A DNA stretch of 36,228 bases from Nitrospirota bacterium (lineage in GTDB: Bacteria > Nitrospirota > Thermodesulfovibrionia > SZUA-242): assembly GCA_003235715.1 (NCBI GenBank), contig QJVM01000029.1, positions 1 through 36,228 on the forward strand, read 5' to 3'. Position 1 is the stretch's first letter. Each line of letters begins with the position of its first letter. Both the position numbers and the translations under genes were made by a program. Below the pieces are notes generated by a model. It searched no databases. It saw only the letters and a list, made by a program, of their open reading frames with translations, and was not told the DNA's origin. Below, one piece after another: positions 7,037 through 35,795 of this stretch.

Positions 7037-7228
7037 GCCCGAAATATGGGCCGCCAGAGCGGTCTTGTTCAGGGCGGTGGGGAGAAGGACCAGATGCGAT
7101 GTGAAGGCCCGGCGGCATTCAGGCCCGGGAATTCTCCCCCTGATATTTCTCCCTCCTGACGGGCACGGCTCAGGCCGAAAGGGATGGGGTGTTGCCACCC
7201 GTAAATGTCCGTCCACGTGGCGGGGAGA

Positions 7229-8740
7229 ATGAAGAAGACTCGAACCCTACTGCTCATCGACGAAAGCCCTGACGATACCACCCTTGCTGCCCTTCAGCTG
7301 AGCCGCAATTCCCAAGACGTACGGGTTGAGAAGGTTAGCGATCCCATTACCTTTGCCGAGCATCTTTCGCGCGGAGGTTTTGCCGCCGTGATTACCGAAT
7401 ATGACCTTTCCTGGGGGAACGGGATCAGGGTTCTGGAGGCGGTCAAGGCCCGCTGGCCGCTCTGTCCGGTCATTCTCTTCACTGCGGACCTGAAAGCAGA
7501 GATGCTGTCGGAGGGACTGCGTCTGGGTCTGGACGGCTATCTTCCCAAGACGAGTAGCGGTTTCCTCAGGCTTGCCTCCACGGTGTTTCGCCTGCTCGAC
7601 CGGGAGGCCCCCTTGACGCCCGGGACCGGGGAGGCCCAGCGGTTCAAAAAGGTGATGAAGGGGTTGGCCACGGGCATTTTCAGTGGAACCCGGGCCTCCG
7701 GCATTCTGGAGGCCAATCCGGCCATGGCTCGCATCCTTGGCCTTGCCGGGCCCGAGGCGCTCAAGGGCCGGAACCTTGCTGACTTTATCGTTACGGAAGA
7801 GGGGCGGGAAAAGTGGAGGGCTGTCCTGGACAAGGCGCAGTCCCTGGAGAATGCGGCCCTGACCCTTTCCGGCGGGCCGGGACACAACGCCTGGATCCGA
7901 CTTACGGTATGGGCGACGGAAGACCCGGTATCCCGTGACTGTATCTACGAGGGAATGGCCGAGGACGTCGGCGGCTGGATGCACGCTGAGGAAGAACTGT
8001 CCAAACGCGAAGAGGCGCTGCGGAAGAGCAACGCCGAACTGAAACAGTTCTCGTACATAGTCTCCCACGATCTGCATGAGCCCCTGCAACTCGTGTCCCG
8101 CTACGCGCAGTTGCTTCTGGACCGGTACGGAGGGAAGGTCGACCGCGAGGCCGACCGTTTCCTGTATCACCTGGTGGACAGCGCTCAGAGGATGCAGGAG
8201 CGAATCGACAGTGTGCTCGAGTACGCCACGCTCGGGGCGAAGGGGCTGAAGCTGGTTCCGGTAAGCTTTTCGGGCCTGGTCGACGAAGCCCTGGAGAACC
8301 TGAAAACGCTGTTGGAGGACACGGGGGCTCGGGTGACTTACGAGCATCTTCCCACGATCAATGCCGACCGTTCTCAGATGCTCCAGCTCTTTGAGAATCT
8401 CATTGGCAATGCCCTGAAGTTCAGGGGCGACAATCCGGTACGGGTGCACATTACGGCCGCCAAGCAGGAGGACGGGTGGAGGTTCTCTGTCCAGGATAAC
8501 GGGATCGGTATCGAACCGGCACAGCAGGAACGGATATTCGGCATGTTTCAGCGCCTTCATACAAAGTCCGAGTATCCGGGCACAGGGATCGGTCTGGCCA
8601 TCTGCAAGAAAATCGTTGAGCAGCATAACGGGAAGATCTGGGTAGAGTCTGAGCCGGGCAAGGGGGCCAGGTTCCTTTTCGTCCTGCCCGAGAAGGTGAG
8701 TTCGGAGCCCATGGAGCGGGCCGTTGAGGCGAACGGATGA
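7229..8740 (+). CDS. Histidine kinase: degenerate receiver - PAS - HisKA - HATPase
   Basis: A soluble sensor kinase of 503 residues with no membrane segment. Residues 5-125 are a CheY-like receiver, 135-250 a PAS-like domain, 265-345 a HisKA dimerisation domain with phospho-accepting H280 (SHDLHEP), and 375-490 an ATPase with N-box (NLIGNALKF), G1 (DNGIGI), F-box (FGMFQRLH) and G2 (GTGIGLAI). The kinase core is complete and of the bacteriophytochrome type. In the receiver the phospho-aspartate position holds glutamate (E57, TEYDLSWGNG), eight residues before the conserved glycine, while the acidic pair and the beta5 lysine remain. It overlaps the start of the next gene by four bases (ATGA) if that gene starts at 8737. 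ATG 7229 is chosen for its MKKTRTLLLID start; ATG 7205 is in frame. Confidence 0.92.
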   Translation: MKKTRTLLLIDESPDDTTLAALQLSRNSQDVRVEKVSDPITFAEHLSRGGFAAVITEYDLSWGNGIRVLEAVKARWPLCPVILFTADLKAEMLSEGLRLGLDGYLPKTSSGFLRLASTVFRLLDREAPLTPGTGEAQRFKKVMKGLATGIFSGTRASGILEANPAMARILGLAGPEALKGRNLADFIVTEEGREKWRAVLDKAQSLENAALTLSGGPGHNAWIRLTVWATEDPVSRDCIYEGMAEDVGGWMHAEEELSKREEALRKSNAELKQFSYIVSHDLHEPLQLVSRYAQLLLDRYGGKVDREADRFLYHLVDSAQRMQERIDSVLEYATLGAKGLKLVPVSFSGLVDEALENLKTLLEDTGARVTYEHLPTINADRSQMLQLFENLIGNALKFRGDNPVRVHITAAKQEDGWRFSVQDNGIGIEPAQQERIFGMFQRLHTKSEYPGTGIGLAICKKIVEQHNGKIWVESEPGKGARFLFVLPEKVSSEPMERAVEANG

Positions 8741-8787
8741 AGGACCGTGACCCTGACCAGGGGACATCACAGGAAGAGAGGGCACAT

Positions 8788-10893
8788 ATGTTTCCCGAAA
8801 CCATAAATCTTCTCATGGTGGAGGATACGCCGGCCGAAGCGGAGCTGGTGCAGATCATGCTGTCCGAGGTCCGCCGGGTTCGATACAATGTAACGCACGT
8901 GGAACGCCTTTCGGCGGGCCTGGATATCCTGAGACGCCGGACCCCCGACGTGGTCTTGCTGGATTTCAACCTGCCCGACAGTTCCGGTCTTGAAACCTTC
9001 CGGAGTGTTCACAGTCTTGCACCCCATGTTCCGGTGATTATCCTGACCAACCTGAAAGATGAAGAGATGGCCATCTATGCCGTACGCCAGGGGGCGCAGG
9101 ATTACCTGGTCAAAAGGGAAGTGGACTCCAATCTCCTGTCCCGGGCCATCCGTTATGCCATTGAGCGGTGCGGCTCGGAAAGGGCCCTTCGCGAAAGCGA
9201 GGAAAGGTATGCCTTGGCCGTGAACGGAGCCAATGATGGGATATGGGACTGGAACCTTCAGTCAAACAGCGTGCATTTCTCGGCTCGTTGGAAATCCATG
9301 CAGGGCTACGAACCCGGCGAGATAGGGGATGACGTCAACGAATGGTTTGACCGGATTCACCCGGATGATGCCCCGCAGTTTCATGCGGCCCTGTCGGCCC
9401 ACCTTGAGGGTAAGACCGAGCACTTTGAGTCCGAGTACCGGCTGAGGAGCAAGACCGGTTACTATTTCTGGCGCCTCTCGCGTGGGCTTGCGGTGCGCGA
9501 TCAGGGGGGACGGCCTTACCGCATGGCCGGTTCCCTTACCGATATCTCTTCCCGAAAGGCGGCGGAGGAACAGCTGCAGCGGGAGGCCCTGTACGACTCC
9601 CTGACCGGACTCCCCAACCGCGCCCTCCTCATCGACCGCATCAACCGGGCCATGGAGGTCGCCCGAAGAAGGCCCAAGGCGGAGTTTGCGGTCGTGTACA
9701 TCGACCTTGACCGCTTCAAGATCATTAACGACAGCCTGGGCCATTCGGTGGGGGATGACCTGCTCGTCCAGGTGTCCGAGAGGCTCGGGTCGCTTTTGAG
9801 ACCAGGGGACACCTTTGCCCGCCTCGTCAGTGACGAATTTGTCCTCGTGCTCGGGGACATCGGCGGACTGACCGAAGTCACGGATTTTGCCGAGCAGATT
9901 CTTGAGAGCATCCGGAAGCCCTTTGAGGTGAGCGCCCATGAAATCCGGATCACGGCCAGTGTCGGGGTGGCCATGTACACCCGGAAGTACGAGCGGGCCG
10001 AGGAGATCATCCGGGATGCGGACATCGCCATGTACCGTTCCAAGACCGCGGAAGGCGGAAGGGGGTACGAAATCTTCAACAGTGAGATGCACCAGAGTGT
10101 CGTGGCCCTGCTGCGTCTCGAGACGGACCTGCGCCGGGCTGTGGAGAGGAACGAGTTTGTCATGTATTACCAGCCTATCGTGATTCTGGAGACGGGCCGG
10201 ATCACGGGTTTCGAGGCCCTGATCCGCTGGCAACATCCGGAACGGGGGCTGCTGGCCCCTCAATCCTTTATCACCGTGGCCGAAGAGACCGGGGTTATTG
10301 TTCCCATAGGCTGGTGGGCCCTTGAGCAGGCCTGCGTGCAGCTCAGGAACTGGCACCGACAGTTTCCCATGACGCCTCCACTGTCCGTGAGCGTGAACAT
10401 TTCAGGCAAGGTGCTGAACGAACGCGACGTGGTGCCGAAGATCCTTGCTCTTATTCAGAGGCACGGCCTGACCCCGCAGAATCTCCGGCTGGAGATCACG
10501 GAGAATATGATCATGGACAGCGGCGAGATAAGCAAGGGCAAGCTCTCAGAACTCCAGAAGGCCGGGGTGAAGCTCAACATCGATGATTTCGGAACCGGCT
10601 ATTCGTCCCTCAGCTATCTTCAGAATTTCAAGTACGACTCCCTCAAGATCGACAAGTCCTTCGTGGGCAACCTTGGCAAAGACGCCAACGGCCTCGCCAT
10701 TGTTCAGACCATTGTGGGGCTGGCCAGCCTCCTTAACATGAACGTGATTGCCGAGGGGGTGGAGACGGCGGACCAGCTTCGCACCCTGCGGGACATCTCG
10801 TGTCCACAGGCCCAGGGTTTCTGGTTTGCCGAGCCCATGAGCATCAGCCACGCTGACGGCCTCCTGGCCAAGCAGTCGCTCCGCGTTCATTAG
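8788..10893 (+). CDS. Response regulator: receiver - PAS - GGDEF (degenerate) - EAL, likely c-di-GMP phosphodiesterase
   Basis: A 701-residue cytoplasmic output protein. The receiver (7-125) is intact with phospho-acceptor D59 (LLDFNLPDSSG). A PAS domain (about 140-258, WDWN and WRLSRGL motifs) precedes GGDEF (270-430) and EAL (440-695). The GGDEF signature reads VSDEF (347-351), losing both glycines, but a product-binding RxxD I-site (RPGD) lies five residues before it. The EAL domain keeps EAL (476-478), NIDDFGTGYSS and AEGVET, so c-di-GMP hydrolysis is the likely activity, with the GGDEF acting as a sensor. It is the probable partner of the kinase just upstream. ATG 8788 has GGAAGAGAGGG before it; ATG 8737, overlapping the kinase stop, is a real alternative. 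Confidence 0.93.
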   Translation: MFPETINLLMVEDTPAEAELVQIMLSEVRRVRYNVTHVERLSAGLDILRRRTPDVVLLDFNLPDSSGLETFRSVHSLAPHVPVIILTNLKDEEMAIYAVRQGAQDYLVKREVDSNLLSRAIRYAIERCGSERALRESEERYALAVNGANDGIWDWNLQSNSVHFSARWKSMQGYEPGEIGDDVNEWFDRIHPDDAPQFHAALSAHLEGKTEHFESEYRLRSKTGYYFWRLSRGLAVRDQGGRPYRMAGSLTDISSRKAAEEQLQREALYDSLTGLPNRALLIDRINRAMEVARRRPKAEFAVVYIDLDRFKIINDSLGHSVGDDLLVQVSERLGSLLRPGDTFARLVSDEFVLVLGDIGGLTEVTDFAEQILESIRKPFEVSAHEIRITASVGVAMYTRKYERAEEIIRDADIAMYRSKTAEGGRGYEIFNSEMHQSVVALLRLETDLRRAVERNEFVMYYQPIVILETGRITGFEALIRWQHPERGLLAPQSFITVAEETGVIVPIGWWALEQACVQLRNWHRQFPMTPPLSVSVNISGKVLNERDVVPKILALIQRHGLTPQNLRLEITENMIMDSGEISKGKLSELQKAGVKLNIDDFGTGYSSLSYLQNFKYDSLKIDKSFVGNLGKDANGLAIVQTIVGLASLLNMNVIAEGVETADQLRTLRDISCPQAQGFWFAEPMSISHADGLLAKQSLRVH

Positions 10894-17008: not shown

Positions 17009-17221
17009 CTTTTCCTCTTTTCAGTATGCAGGCGGGTGGCTCAGAAAGGGCGGTATCCGGTCAGCCGAGTCAGACCTGTGTGTTCGGATTTTGTCTGCCA
17101 CTATTATATACGGATGGACTGGCCCACTTCAGACGGCGTGCCGAAGATGATGTACGGGACTTGTTGTCAGTGTGGTCATATGCCCGTAAAATGGTACCGT
17201 TGTGGAAGCGTGCATCTCGAA

Positions 17222-18178
17222 ATGAGCGAACCGACACCTGATCCTCACGTCCCCACCGGGGAGATCGCTTCTCCGGAAATGAGCAGGATTCTGGTTGTGG
17301 ACGACGAGACGTCCATCGTCCGTTTCCTCAAGGAGGTGTTGGAAGAGGCCGGGTATCATGTGACACCGGCCTCCACGACCCATGAAGCCATGGGACATCT
17401 GGCCGCTGCTGCCTTCGACCTTCTGATCACCGACATTCTCATGCCAGGGTCCGACGGGCTTGAACTGGCCCGCTTCACAGCCGGGAAGTACGATACGGAC
17501 ATCATCCTGATGACGGGCTACGCAGAGGAGTTCACCTATGAGCTGGCCGTCGAACACGGGGCCACGGATTTTCTTGTAAAACCCCTGCGTCCCCGCGAGA
17601 CGGTCCTCAGGGTCAAGCGGGTTCTGAGGGAGCGTGCGTTGAAGAAGGACCGCGAGAGCATGATCAGAAGCCTTGAGGAGATGGCCATTACCGATGCCCT
17701 GACCGGTCTTTATAACTCAAGGCACTTCTACGGCCGTATCGAGATCGAGGTGAGCTCGGCCGGCCGTTATGGTACGCCCCTGTCACTCCTGATGCTGGAC
17801 ATCGATGATTTCAAGGAGTATAACGATACCTTCGGCCATCTCGAGGGAGATGGCGTGCTCGTTCGGATCGGGGACGTCTTTAGGGAATGTCTGAGAAAAT
17901 CTGACTCGGCCTACCGCTATGGCGGAGAGGAGTTTGCCCTGATCCTTTCCCGGACGCACACGCCGGAGGCCGTGGCCGTGGCTCACCGTATTCGCGAGGA
18001 GATAGAGGCCAGCGAACTCAGTCCCAGGCCCGGGCATAGCATGCGCATTACGGCCAGTATCGGCGTTGCGGAACACCGACCCGGAGAATCAGCGGCGGAC
18101 TTCATCCGGAGGGCGGACCAGGCCCTTTATGAGTCCAAACGGCAGGGGAAAAACCGAGTGTCCATCTCGAGAAAGTGA
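17222..18178 (+). CDS. Response regulator diguanylate cyclase: receiver - GGDEF
   Basis: A 318-residue PleD/WspR-like protein that makes c-di-GMP when phosphorylated. The receiver (20-140) is intact, with acceptor D71 (LLITDILMPGSDG), T98 and K120. The cyclase domain (152-315) carries GGEEF at 234-238 and an I-site RKSD (R225-D228), so product inhibition is expected. No kinase gene is adjacent. Start uncertain: ATG 17222 is chosen because it gives a short polar lead; ATG 17279 is directly before the receiver, and the frame runs upstream to 17036 through a cysteine-containing stretch. A TATTATATA stretch at 17102-17110 may be a -10 element, supporting a start downstream of it. Confidence 0.92.
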   Translation: MSEPTPDPHVPTGEIASPEMSRILVVDDETSIVRFLKEVLEEAGYHVTPASTTHEAMGHLAAAAFDLLITDILMPGSDGLELARFTAGKYDTDIILMTGYAEEFTYELAVEHGATDFLVKPLRPRETVLRVKRVLRERALKKDRESMIRSLEEMAITDALTGLYNSRHFYGRIEIEVSSAGRYGTPLSLLMLDIDDFKEYNDTFGHLEGDGVLVRIGDVFRECLRKSDSAYRYGGEEFALILSRTHTPEAVAVAHRIREEIEASELSPRPGHSMRITASIGVAEHRPGESAADFIRRADQALYESKRQGKNRVSISRK

Positions 18179-18235: not shown

Positions 18236-18730
18236 TCAGATGGGCAAGAAACTGCTGCAGCGTCCGCACTTGGGGTTAGAGGACATCCTGGATAGTGGCA
18301 CGCGGTTCTTGACTCCGCAGACGGCACACACGACGATGCGGCTTTCCTTGGGCGGGAGTCCGGGACCGGCCGGCTTCCAGCCGTCCACGAAGGGGACGTC
18401 TTCCATCCTTAAACCCTCTCCGATGACCTCTTCCAGCATCCTGACATAATTCAGGTCACAACACCGAAGTTCGATTCCCATTCCGTTCTTGATTAAAGGG
18501 GAATTGGACTTGGCGGCTCGCCGTACCAGGCCGGTCCCGTGGGCCCTGCCGCCGTCCTTCAGGTACACCATGAATTCGATGTGACTGCCGGGCGTGAGAC
18601 AGTTGCTGGTCCGGATGAACAAACCCTTTTCGGACAGGTTGCTCGAGATTCCCTTGAACACCTTGTCCTCAAAGTAAAAGTCAGTCTCCAGTCGGCGGAT
18701 ATGCCTTTCGTGCAGGCGGTTTTTCTTCAT
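18236..18730 (-). CDS. PilZ domain protein with C-terminal TrxC-like zinc ribbon
   Basis: A 164-residue predicted c-di-GMP receptor. The PilZ part (about 5-105) shows the RxxxR motif (RHIRR) and NLSEKG, the (D/N)xSxxG motif, with the expected GLFIRT continuation. The last 30 residues hold VCAVCGVKNRVP and PKCGRCSSF, a two-CxxC zinc ribbon resembling the N-terminal ribbon of thioredoxin 2 (TrxC) rather than any usual PilZ partner. ATG 18730 is chosen from the typical PilZ N-terminus; ATG 18793, with GGGGTG eight bases upstream, would add 21 basic residues. It is divergent from argH and convergent with the diguanylate cyclase gene. Confidence 0.82.
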   Translation of the reverse strand: MKKNRLHERHIRRLETDFYFEDKVFKGISSNLSEKGLFIRTSNCLTPGSHIEFMVYLKDGGRAHGTGLVRRAAKSNSPLIKNGMGIELRCCDLNYVRMLEEVIGEGLRMEDVPFVDGWKPAGPGLPPKESRIVVCAVCGVKNRVPLSRMSSNPKCGRCSSFLPI

Positions 18731-18797: not shown

Positions 18798-18826
18798 TTG
18801 ACACCCCGGGGGGGCTCATTTATTCT
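18798..18826 (+). promoter_or_regulatory. Sigma70 promoter of argH with a very short or absent leader
   Basis: TTGACA (18798-18803, perfect -35) and TATTCT (18821-18826, four of six) are spaced by exactly 17 bases. Transcription would start around 18832-18834, and the argH start codon is at 18834. No ribosome-binding site lies between, so the transcript is predicted to be leaderless. Confidence 0.65.
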
Positions 18827-18833
18827 ACGGACC

Positions 18834-20216
18834 ATGTCTTCGAAAAAGCTCTGGGGCGGAAGATTCGACAAGGCCACGGACGATGCCGTGGAGCGTTTTA
18901 CCGAATCCCTTTCTTTTGACCAACGCCTCTGGCCCTACGATATCCAGGGGAGCATGGCGCATGTCCGGATGCTCGCACGGCAACGCGTCATCCCGAAGGG
19001 GGATGCGGCCCTGATCCTCAAAGGTCTGCGGGATATCGCCGCGGAACTCAAGGGTGGAACCTTTCCCTTCCGGAGCGAGTACGAGGACATTCATATGAAT
19101 ATCGAGGCCCGCCTCATGGAGAAGATCGGCCCCGTCGGGGGCCGGTTGCATACGGCAAGGAGCCGGAACGACCAGGTGGCCCTGGACATACGCCTTTTCC
19201 TGAGAGAGGAAACCCGGACCCTGCTCAAGCTCCTCACGAAGCTTCGCAAATCCGTTGTGCTCACGGCCGAGCGAAACACGGAGGTTTTGCTCCCGGGGTA
19301 CACCCACCTTCAGAGGGCTCAACCGGTGCTCCTGGCCCACCACCTGCTGGCCTATTACGAGATGTTCCGCCGGGACGAGGCGCGCTTCAACGACCTGCTT
19401 CCGCGCATCAATGTTCTGCCCCTTGGCTCCGCGGCACTGGCGGGAACCACGTTCCCCATTGATCGCCATTACGTGGCAAGGCAACTCGGGTTCGAAGCCG
19501 TATCCGAAAACAGCCTCGATGCCGTTTCGGACCGAGACTTCGTGATTGATTTTCTTTCTGCCGCTTCGGTGCTGATGATGCATCTGTCCCGGCTGAGCGA
19601 AGAGATCGTTTTGTGGTCCAGCGGAGAATTCGGCTTTATCGAACTCCCTGATGCCTTTGCCACCGGGTCGTCCATCATGCCCCAGAAGAAGAACCCGGAT
19701 GTTGCGGAACTGACACGGGGGAAAACCGGCCGCGTCTATGGGAGCCTTGTGACGCTTTTGACCGTGATGAAGGGACTTCCGTTGGCCTATAACCGCGATA
19801 TGCAGGAGGACAAGGAGCCCCTTTTCGATGCGGTGGATACCGCCAAGGCTTGTGTGGACCTCATGTCGCGGATGCTCCCGCGGCTCAAGGTCCGGGCAGA
19901 CAGGATGAGGGACGCCGCGGAAGAGGGCTTTACCACGGCTACGGACCTGGCCGATTATCTCGTGGCCCGGGGGATGCCCTTCCGGGAAGCTCATGCCGTA
20001 GCTGGTAAGGCCGTGGCCCACTGCCTGGCCGGGCACAAGAAGCTTCAGGACCTTTCGACGGATGAACTGAAAGCGTATGCTCCCGGCATCCGGGAGGATG
20101 TCCGGGAATGGCTTTCGGTCGAGGGGTCTGCTTCCCGTCGCAAATCCCACGGGGGTACGGCGAAGGAACGGGTGCTCAAGCGGCTGAAGCAAATCCGGAC
20201 CGGAGAACTGGACTGA
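18834..20216 (+). CDS. argH: Argininosuccinate lyase
   Basis: A 460-residue enzyme of the fumarase/aspartase superfamily that splits argininosuccinate into arginine and fumarate, the last step of arginine synthesis. The conserved KLWGGRF start, TARSRNDQ, the GYTHLQRAQP helix and the signature GSSIMPQKKNPD are all present, and the length matches the family. The start ATG 18834 fits the invariant KLWGGRF segment; a TTG at 18798 in frame falls inside the promoter. There is no Shine-Dalgarno sequence. The next gene, a lipoprotein, begins 45 bases downstream, a common position for lipoproteins of this kind. Confidence 0.97.
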   Translation: MSSKKLWGGRFDKATDDAVERFTESLSFDQRLWPYDIQGSMAHVRMLARQRVIPKGDAALILKGLRDIAAELKGGTFPFRSEYEDIHMNIEARLMEKIGPVGGRLHTARSRNDQVALDIRLFLREETRTLLKLLTKLRKSVVLTAERNTEVLLPGYTHLQRAQPVLLAHHLLAYYEMFRRDEARFNDLLPRINVLPLGSAALAGTTFPIDRHYVARQLGFEAVSENSLDAVSDRDFVIDFLSAASVLMMHLSRLSEEIVLWSSGEFGFIELPDAFATGSSIMPQKKNPDVAELTRGKTGRVYGSLVTLLTVMKGLPLAYNRDMQEDKEPLFDAVDTAKACVDLMSRMLPRLKVRADRMRDAAEEGFTTATDLADYLVARGMPFREAHAVAGKAVAHCLAGHKKLQDLSTDELKAYAPGIREDVREWLSVEGSASRRKSHGGTAKERVLKRLKQIRTGELD

Positions 20217-34010: not shown

Positions 34011-35795
34011 ATGGAAACCGTTGAACAACAGACGACCGGGGGGCATCCCTCCGCTACGGCGGCTCCGCGGCAGGAACGCCGAAGAAGCCGTCGCATTCGT
34101 CGTCGGCTCGAGGTGAAGCTGGAAACCGAGCGGACCTCCGTCGCCGGACATACGCTGGACGTTTCCTCATTCGGGGCAAGACTGCTCCTGCCAAAGGCCG
34201 TCCCTCTCGTGGCCGGAGAACGCTACGGGATGATCTTTACCGAGCTTAAATCCGTGGTCAACGTGCAGATCATATGGGTCAACCGCCAGCCCGAACACGT
34301 GGTGGCCGGGGTCTGCAAGGTTTTGACACGCGAAGGCAACCTCGGCACCACGCCCCTTCATGAAATTTTGTTTGAACTCATGGTCCGGCAGCGAACGGGC
34401 GAACTCAAGTTCATCCGGGGGGCCGCGCACAAGAGCATCTTTGTAAGAAATGGGGAGATCATCTGGGCCACGTCAGACCAGGAGTTCGATTCCCTGGGCG
34501 CCCTCATGGTCAGGGACGGAAGACTGGATTCGGCCACCTATGAACGGCTGGTGGGCATTAATTTCCGTCAGTCCGAAAAGACTGTGGAGTCCCTGCTTCT
34601 GGAGAGGGGGCACCTCAAGGCGAAAGACCTGGAAGAGGCCGAGGCCTTTCGAACGGCTGAGACCGTCAAGGGACTCTTCGGTTGGTCCGAGGGGGAGTTC
34701 ATGTTCGACGACGGACGACGCCCCCCCCAGTTCGTCACCCTGCGCACTTCCACCTCGAATCTGATCGTGGAAGGTATCCGGAGGGCGTCCATGGAGCGGG
34801 TCAACGAGATTCTGGAGCCTATCAAGGATATTCCCCTTTCAGTCAGCCTCGACCCTTTGAGACTGTTCCAGCAGGTTTCCCTGAAGGACGAGGAAAAGAC
34901 CGTCATGGGGATGGTGGACGGGAAGACTTCGCTTACGGCCCTGGGCCAGAAATGTACCTATCCTCAGGAGGTCCTCCGCCGGGCGGTGGCGGTTCTGACC
35001 GGGGCCTATCTGATTGAACTCGGCGAAAGCATCGAGGAGGACGCGGAGACCGATTTGGAATCCGGGGCGGAACCCTCCAATGAAAAGGGTGTGGTGGAGG
35101 CCCGTATCGACCAGATGTACCGCCGGCTTCACGACCTGACGCATTACGAAATTCTGGGGGTTCCGCAATCTGCGGACGGCGCCCGGCTCAAGAAGGCCTA
35201 TTATCAGAAGGCCCGCGACTTCCACCCCGACCTTCACCACAAACTCGGCAAGGGATATGGCTCCAAGCTGAATGTCATTTTCAGCCTGGTGAACGAGGTG
35301 TACGAGGTTCTTTCTGATAACGACAAGAGAAAAAAGTATGACCATACCCTGGATTACCTGAGGTCCAAGCGCGTCACGGGCAGCGTGGGGAGTGCCGCTC
35401 CAAGGCCGGCGACGAGCCCGCCGGAGGCCGGTCTCTCGGCCGAGGACATGTACCGCAACGGAAATACCAAGTACAACGCCCGCGATTTTGCGGCGGCGGC
35501 CGAGTTCTACAAGAATGCGGCCCGGCTCGACCCTGAGAAGGGGGTCTACTTTTTCGCGGCCGGCAAGACCCTGATGTTTGTCCCCAAGAGACTGAAGGAG
35601 GCCGAGGAGTATCTTTTGAAATCCGTGGAAAAGGAGCCCTTTAACACGCGGTATCTCCTTGAACTTGGAAATCTTTATCTGAAAGCCCGTCTCGGTACGC
35701 GCGCGGTCCGGACTTTCGAAGAAGTCCTGAAGATCGACCAGAACAATGCCATAGGCAAGAAGGGCTACGAAGCCGCCAAACGCCTCGCCACCTGA
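34011..35795 (+). CDS. PilZ - DUF4388 - DnaJ - TPR protein
   Basis: A 594-residue cytoplasmic protein with four parts. Residues 22-105 are PilZ, with a basic RxxxR region and D50-V-S-S-F-G (DxSxxG), so c-di-GMP binding is expected. About 110-335 is a DUF4388/PATAN-type domain (FELMVRQRTGELKF, SIFVRNGEIIWATS). Residues 376-445 are a J domain with HPD at 405-407, the Hsp70-stimulating motif. A proline/alanine linker (452-475) leads to about three TPR units (476-590). It could couple the second messenger to a DnaK-dependent step. The start is ATG 34011; GAGGG is about 16 bases upstream. It stands alone after the U32 gene. Confidence 0.85.
   Translation: METVEQQTTGGHPSATAAPRQERRRSRRIRRRLEVKLETERTSVAGHTLDVSSFGARLLLPKAVPLVAGERYGMIFTELKSVVNVQIIWVNRQPEHVVAGVCKVLTREGNLGTTPLHEILFELMVRQRTGELKFIRGAAHKSIFVRNGEIIWATSDQEFDSLGALMVRDGRLDSATYERLVGINFRQSEKTVESLLLERGHLKAKDLEEAEAFRTAETVKGLFGWSEGEFMFDDGRRPPQFVTLRTSTSNLIVEGIRRASMERVNEILEPIKDIPLSVSLDPLRLFQQVSLKDEEKTVMGMVDGKTSLTALGQKCTYPQEVLRRAVAVLTGAYLIELGESIEEDAETDLESGAEPSNEKGVVEARIDQMYRRLHDLTHYEILGVPQSADGARLKKAYYQKARDFHPDLHHKLGKGYGSKLNVIFSLVNEVYEVLSDNDKRKKYDHTLDYLRSKRVTGSVGSAAPRPATSPPEAGLSAEDMYRNGNTKYNARDFAAAAEFYKNAARLDPEKGVYFFAAGKTLMFVPKRLKEAEEYLLKSVEKEPFNTRYLLELGNLYLKARLGTRAVRTFEEVLKIDQNNAIGKKGYEAAKRLAT

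Follow-up and report, generated by a model that had tools for sequence, protein, structure and literature searches.

A predicted PilZ protein with a C-terminal thioredoxin-2-type zinc ribbon, encoded between purA and comF in relatives from one Nitrospirota class

Introduction

What does a zinc ribbon of the kind that heads TrxC do at the tail of a PilZ domain? The question is raised by one gene in a 36,228-nt stretch of Nitrospirota DNA (contig QJVM01000029.1; this whole stretch is hereafter called the window), from a genome of the class that we take to be Thermodesulfovibrionia. The original prediction read the gene as a fusion of PilZ with such a ribbon, and proposed that the ribbon senses redox state or zinc and thereby gates c-di-GMP output. 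Here, we follow the protein through its domains, its relatives and its gene neighborhood, and weigh what the ribbon may be for.

Results

Domains and predicted structure of the window protein

Pfam analysis of the window protein (Table 1) revealed both families above their curated cut-offs, PilZ (PF07238) at 27.9 bits against 22.5 and Zn_ribbon_Thio2 (PF21352) at 39.5 bits (E 5.2e-10) against 27.1, which bears out the fusion as first read; PF21352 was found at the identical place in a search of the window's genome. The PilZ half carries RxxxR (R9, R13) and [DN]xSxxG (N31, S33, G36), which we take to be the c-di-GMP motifs of PilZ domains. Sequence search aligned the ribbon to solved Trx2 structures (7ysi, E 6.9e-5; 2ppt, E 4.9e-4). 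Two NCBIfam models matched under their curated cut-offs, TIGR02266 on the PilZ half (40.5 bits, cut-off 68.7) and the TrxC model on the ribbon half (20.5 bits, cut-off 125). An ordinary TrxC is ruled out by the absence of a thioredoxin domain with its active-site CxxC (Pfam, E up to 1).

The AlphaFold2 model of the window protein, built from a 10-sequence alignment, is mainly beta (mean pLDDT 83.5, pTM 0.63), with a PilZ-like barrel and a ribbon that are both confidently modelled (means over ten-residue blocks mostly 81-94) and with confidence below 50 at residues 1-10 and at linker residues 123-127. When the model was compared with the PDB by Foldseek, c-di-GMP PilZ structures ranked first, and the sole one of 762 matches at E <=0.001 was MotI/DgrA (5vx6_B, E 7.1e-4); the other top folds were MrkH, cellulose synthase, VCA0042, MapZ, PA4608 and Alg44.

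Table 1. Positions of the PilZ-ribbon gene, its parts and other genes discussed in the text (window coordinates)
Feature	Position	Strand	Description	Basis
PilZ-ribbon gene	18236..18730	(-)	164 aa; ATG at 18730, stop ends 18236	ORF, translation, Pfam
PilZ domain	18473..18721	(-)	residues 4-86	Pfam, motif conservation, model
TrxC-type zinc ribbon	18254..18331	(-)	residues 134-159; C135/C138/C155/C158	PF21352, cysteine conservation
Variable linker	18332..18421	(-)	after PilZ C-terminal helix, ~residues 104-133	model confidence, relatives
Response regulator + GGDEF, likely diguanylate cyclase	17036..18178	(+)	convergent neighbor	Pfam Response_reg 82.6, GGDEF 155.9 bits
Argininosuccinate lyase (argH)	18834..20216	(+)	divergent neighbor	Pfam Lyase_1, ASL_C2
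Receiver-PAS histidine kinase	7205-8740	(+)		Pfam
Response regulator-PAS-GGDEF-EAL protein	8737-10893	(+)		Pfam
Second PilZ protein	34011-35795	(+)	DUF4388 and DnaJ above cut-off, TPR weak	

Distribution and conservation of the family

We searched 230 genomes of the window's class with a profile (A1) of four full-length relatives, the window protein among them, and took a match of >=150 bits as a full-length relative. Among the matches listed, 72 genomes gave a full-length match; with G090, which carries the architecture with three ribbons and whose profile match ends at residue 106, the PilZ-ribbon architecture is present in 73 of the 230 genomes, which fall in 10 of the 21 family codes encountered. 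A fusion confined to the window is thus ruled out. Within this one class the architecture is common, and no characterization of it was found in the literature searched.

As a single query against genome contigs, the window protein retrieved zero relatives, while the A1 profile retrieved 10 loci, nine of them with both domains (eight labelled Nitrospirae or Nitrospirota and one labelled uncultured bacterium) and the tenth a weak PilZ-only match in a Deltaproteobacterium. When 395 genomes of the latter's phylum were searched, nine matched at E up to 1e-12, none of them full-length; in one of the nine (G728), judging from its ORF, the profile had picked up a TrxC ribbon. Across 395 genomes drawn from the window's own phylum, all full-length matches among those listed lie inside the window's class. 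PF21352 occurs in 131 of these 395 genomes, and ten out-of-class examples chosen among the matches listed (L193-L202, two of them incomplete) are TrxC-like. A PilZ tree of 100 rows and 104 columns, a weak one, had 8 label changes and is compatible with one origin of the fusion; the window row forms a long branch and falls in no starred set.

Conservation was scored on 76 distinct sequences, those of the 73 genomes together with G095, G099 and G091, excluding three longer PilZ-ribbon-kinase proteins. The four ribbon cysteines, whose conservation in orthologues had been set as a test of the idea, are invariant in all 76. Chance pairs of CxxC are ruled out by this invariance and the Pfam match, and a chance origin is likewise excluded because all ten members of a second alignment (A2) match both Pfam families, PilZ at E up to 0.01. 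The c-di-GMP motif residues are nearly as constant (R9 75/75, R13 73/75, D/N31 75/76, S33 and G36 76/76). Cysteines outside the ribbon each occur in at most 8 of the 76 sequences, none being conserved in the PilZ part. The linker of the relatives varies in length and composition and is rich in E/P/A; the stretch between D92 and the ribbon's first cysteine measures at least 19 residues (median 44; 42 in the window protein), the longest value of 78 belonging to a two-ribbon protein in which the second ribbon may have been counted.

Gene order around purA and comF

The strongest clue to function is the order purA, PilZ-ribbon gene, comF in the relatives, which the original prediction had missed. 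All 72 genomes other than the window's have purA immediately 5' of the gene and in the same orientation, and 70 of them have comF immediately 3'; in the other two, the contig runs out (G192) or no comF match follows (G199). Relative to the purA stop, the nearest predicted start codon of the PilZ-ribbon gene falls between -20 and +40 nt in 68 of 74 cases, and the nearest one of comF precedes the PilZ-ribbon stop by 4-37 nt in 60 of 71 (counts that also take in G095 and G099). Open comF frames overlap ribbon codons at most loci, and at several the only plausible nearby comF ATGs, as predicted starts, lie within the stretch that encodes the second CxxC. Conservation is equally good for the first CxxC and for K141-N142, both located 5' of the usual overlap. 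According to Pfam, the ComF of the relatives consists of DZR_2 (a double zinc ribbon) and a phosphoribosyltransferase domain, and the nearly constant place of the PilZ-ribbon gene beside comF, a DNA-uptake family, suggests a possible link of c-di-GMP to DNA or nucleotide handling. At least 44 genomes of the class that lack the PilZ-ribbon gene have purA and comF next to each other (gap up to ~220 nt, judged by eye). The pair may thus be an old one in which the gene is a passenger.

The sole exception to this order is the window copy, which sits between argH (start taken at an internal ATG, by inference, of a listed ORF at 18798-20216) and the predicted response-regulator diguanylate cyclase. 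The window's genome carries purA on contig C269 and comF on contig C82, neither adjoining the PilZ-ribbon gene. Directly 5' of this comF, in the place taken by the PilZ-ribbon gene in the relatives, is a TrxC-like gene of the same ribbon family (L144), and the fusion may derive from a trxC neighbor of this sort. As a general order, comF after trxC was rejected, being found only in the window's genome and not in G001, G002 or the others compared among the matches listed. PilZ is matched 11 times in the window's genome and PF21352 twice, the second PF21352 match being a TrxC-like protein. Elsewhere in the window, the adjoining histidine kinase and GGDEF-EAL regulator at 7205-10893 (+) are likely a c-di-GMP two-component pair, and the second PilZ protein would join a c-di-GMP receptor to a co-chaperone domain, an unusual combination.

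Natural variants of the locus and other carriers of the ribbon

Three loci are natural deletions at the purA-comF slot (L175, L123 and L172 in genomes G163, G164 and G093): the ribbon is kept and PilZ lost in G163, and PilZ is kept and the ribbon absent in G164 and G093. The loss of the ribbon in the latter two and of PilZ in the former indicates that neither half is indispensable to the locus. Other intermediate states of the slot are a fragmentary PilZ (G195), PilZ and ribbon split between frames (G083) and diverged Cys4 ribbons (G095 and G099); some of all these variants could be assembly errors.

PilZ is followed by two or three ribbons in L084, L098, L104 and L129, the last of which (in G090) has three tandem TrxC-type ribbons and lies within the purA-comF slot. 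In L124, L125 and L126 (L124 by pattern, L126 by Pfam) the ribbon follows PilZ and precedes a TPR-bearing Ser/Thr kinase. It precedes such a kinase in L203 and L204 too (L203 by Pfam), and it lies C-terminal to DUF6982 in L208 (above the PF21352 cut-off) and L205 (just under it). Because it recurs on several such carriers, a portable docking or stabilizing module would fit the ribbon better than a gate specific to PilZ.

Discussion

We tentatively propose, at slightly less than even odds, that the PilZ-ribbon protein is a stand-alone cytosolic c-di-GMP receptor whose tethered, zinc-stabilized ribbon would be a structural module for docking; ComF is the leading candidate partner. In this scheme, c-di-GMP binding at the N-terminal RxxxR and at the [DN]xSxxG loop would reshape the PilZ part, so that the ribbon is either offered to a partner or pulled away from it. 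In the relatives the likeliest partner would be the co-encoded ComF-family protein, and c-di-GMP would act through it on DNA uptake, the handling of ssDNA or nucleotide salvage. The gene of the window's genome lies outside a purA-comF operon and adjoins a predicted diguanylate cyclase. We infer zinc binding, c-di-GMP binding, the partner and the direction of control; ComF is named as first candidate and PurA as second because of gene order. Against the proposal stand the purA-comF pairs that lack the gene, the place of the window copy away from both genes, and the slots in which one half is missing. A docking role has a parallel in Trx2, whose ribbon is thought to mediate protein contacts according to the available part of one paper (PMC8615215).

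One alternative to docking is the originally proposed switch, in which oxidized cysteines would eject zinc and so gate c-di-GMP binding or output. The four ribbon cysteines are indeed invariant, and the same partly available source describes disulfides, zinc release and conformational change in the E. coli Trx2 ribbon upon H2O2 treatment (PMC8615215), so a redox role stays conceivable. Against it, the linker is variable (19 residues or more, median 44), E/P/A-rich and poorly predicted, and no cysteine outside the ribbon exceeds 8 of 76 sequences. With this linker and with no conserved PilZ cysteine, a redox or zinc gate on c-di-GMP output has gained no positive evidence, and we regard it as improbable. 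Its zinc-sensing form is also unlikely: a Ka >10^18 M^-1 for zinc, given for the E. coli Trx2 ribbon in that text (PMC8615215), speaks against sensing of free zinc. The ribbon may otherwise be purely structural or a relic, kept by the overlap with the comF start, on a protein that is an ordinary PilZ receptor. The comF frames that overlap ribbon codons at most loci, the several loci whose only nearby comF ATGs lie in second-CxxC codons, and the lost or diverged ribbons of G164, G093, G095 and G099 would all suit such a relic. The window copy, however, retains all cysteines and scores 39.5 bits to PF21352 with no comF overlapping it; since it keeps the motifs away from comF, their conservation is not merely a by-product of gene overlap. 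The equal conservation of the first CxxC and K141-N142 outside the usual overlap, and the retention of the ribbon without PilZ in G163, weigh in the same direction and leave this explanation unlikely, though worth keeping in view.

The docking partner could also be PurA rather than ComF, which would make the protein a c-di-GMP-responsive modulator of purine flux. PurA consumes GTP, the precursor of c-di-GMP, which is the reason for considering it, and purA is immediately 5' in 72 of 72 genomes with the start within -20 to +40 nt in 68 of 74 cases. Co-transcription alone could account for that order, purA-comF pairs exist without the PilZ-ribbon gene, and the available text of the literature on PilZ with adenylosuccinate synthesis yielded no precedent; we consider a PurA partner very improbable.

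If gene order reflects function, c-di-GMP would be tied directly to a ComF-family DNA-uptake or nucleotide-salvage protein, and the tie would extend over much of a single class whose bacteria are mostly uncultured. For tests of mechanism, the family also offers natural variants in which either half stands by itself or the ribbon occurs once, twice or three times, with copies inside and outside the operon. A bolder extension is that in this Nitrospirota class the PilZ-ribbon protein occupies the place that ComFB has in Bacillus, as a zinc-binding cyclic-dinucleotide receptor co-translated with ComF that puts ComF-dependent DNA uptake or nucleotide salvage under the control of c-di-GMP; we hold this to be rather unlikely, and if true, two unrelated folds would have converged on one job.

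Among known systems, the architecture of PilZ with a TrxC-type ribbon was not found described in the available text of the literature on PilZ domains, ComF and competence, nor where a Leptospira c-di-GMP paper mentions zinc or thioredoxin (PMC12943098). The stand-alone PilZ receptors MotI/DgrA, MapZ, PA4608 and PA0012 (PF07238) share the PilZ fold and motifs with the present protein, but the matched entries describe no C-terminal Cys4 ribbon, and the present genes sit with purA and comF. TrxC shares the ribbon family (PF21352), the cysteine spacing and the N-R-V motif, but there the ribbon is N-terminal on an oxidoreductase, whereas here it is C-terminal on a predicted c-di-GMP receptor without a thioredoxin domain. 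The pilus-linked PilZ proteins of Legionella, Pseudomonas and Xanthomonas share the PilZ family; for Legionella, the available portion of the report makes no mention of a ribbon, states that a PilZ family protein is required for DNA uptake, and speculates that it acts through PilB without c-di-GMP (PMC7811196). As to ComF itself, the accessible text on H. pylori ComFC describes a zinc finger and a putative phosphoribosyltransferase domain, binding of ssDNA and a requirement in transformation (PMC9005727).

A parallel in genomic position is ComFB. In the part of the study available, B. subtilis ComFB is a small cytosolic protein, an all-helical dimer with one Cys4 zinc site of unusually spaced cysteines, its ORF comes immediately before comFC and overlaps it by 4 nt, and its deletion left transformation unaffected under the conditions tested (PMC4381287). 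For the cyanobacterial ComFB/CdgR, the available text gives binding of both c-di-AMP and c-di-GMP, along with effects on pilus formation, DNA uptake and competence (PMC12313861). Homology with ComFB was rejected, PF10719 being unmatched (Pfam, E up to 1) and the predicted fold different. Understanding of what ComFB-like receptors do beside comFC is only at its start, and in the present family a fold unrelated to theirs seems to occupy the equivalent place. A function like theirs could be in keeping with the c-di-GMP motifs of the family and, in the relatives, with the adjacency to comF; the window copy is not beside comF. Set against the all-helical fold of ComFB, the PilZ barrel and ribbon make ComFB at most an analogue.
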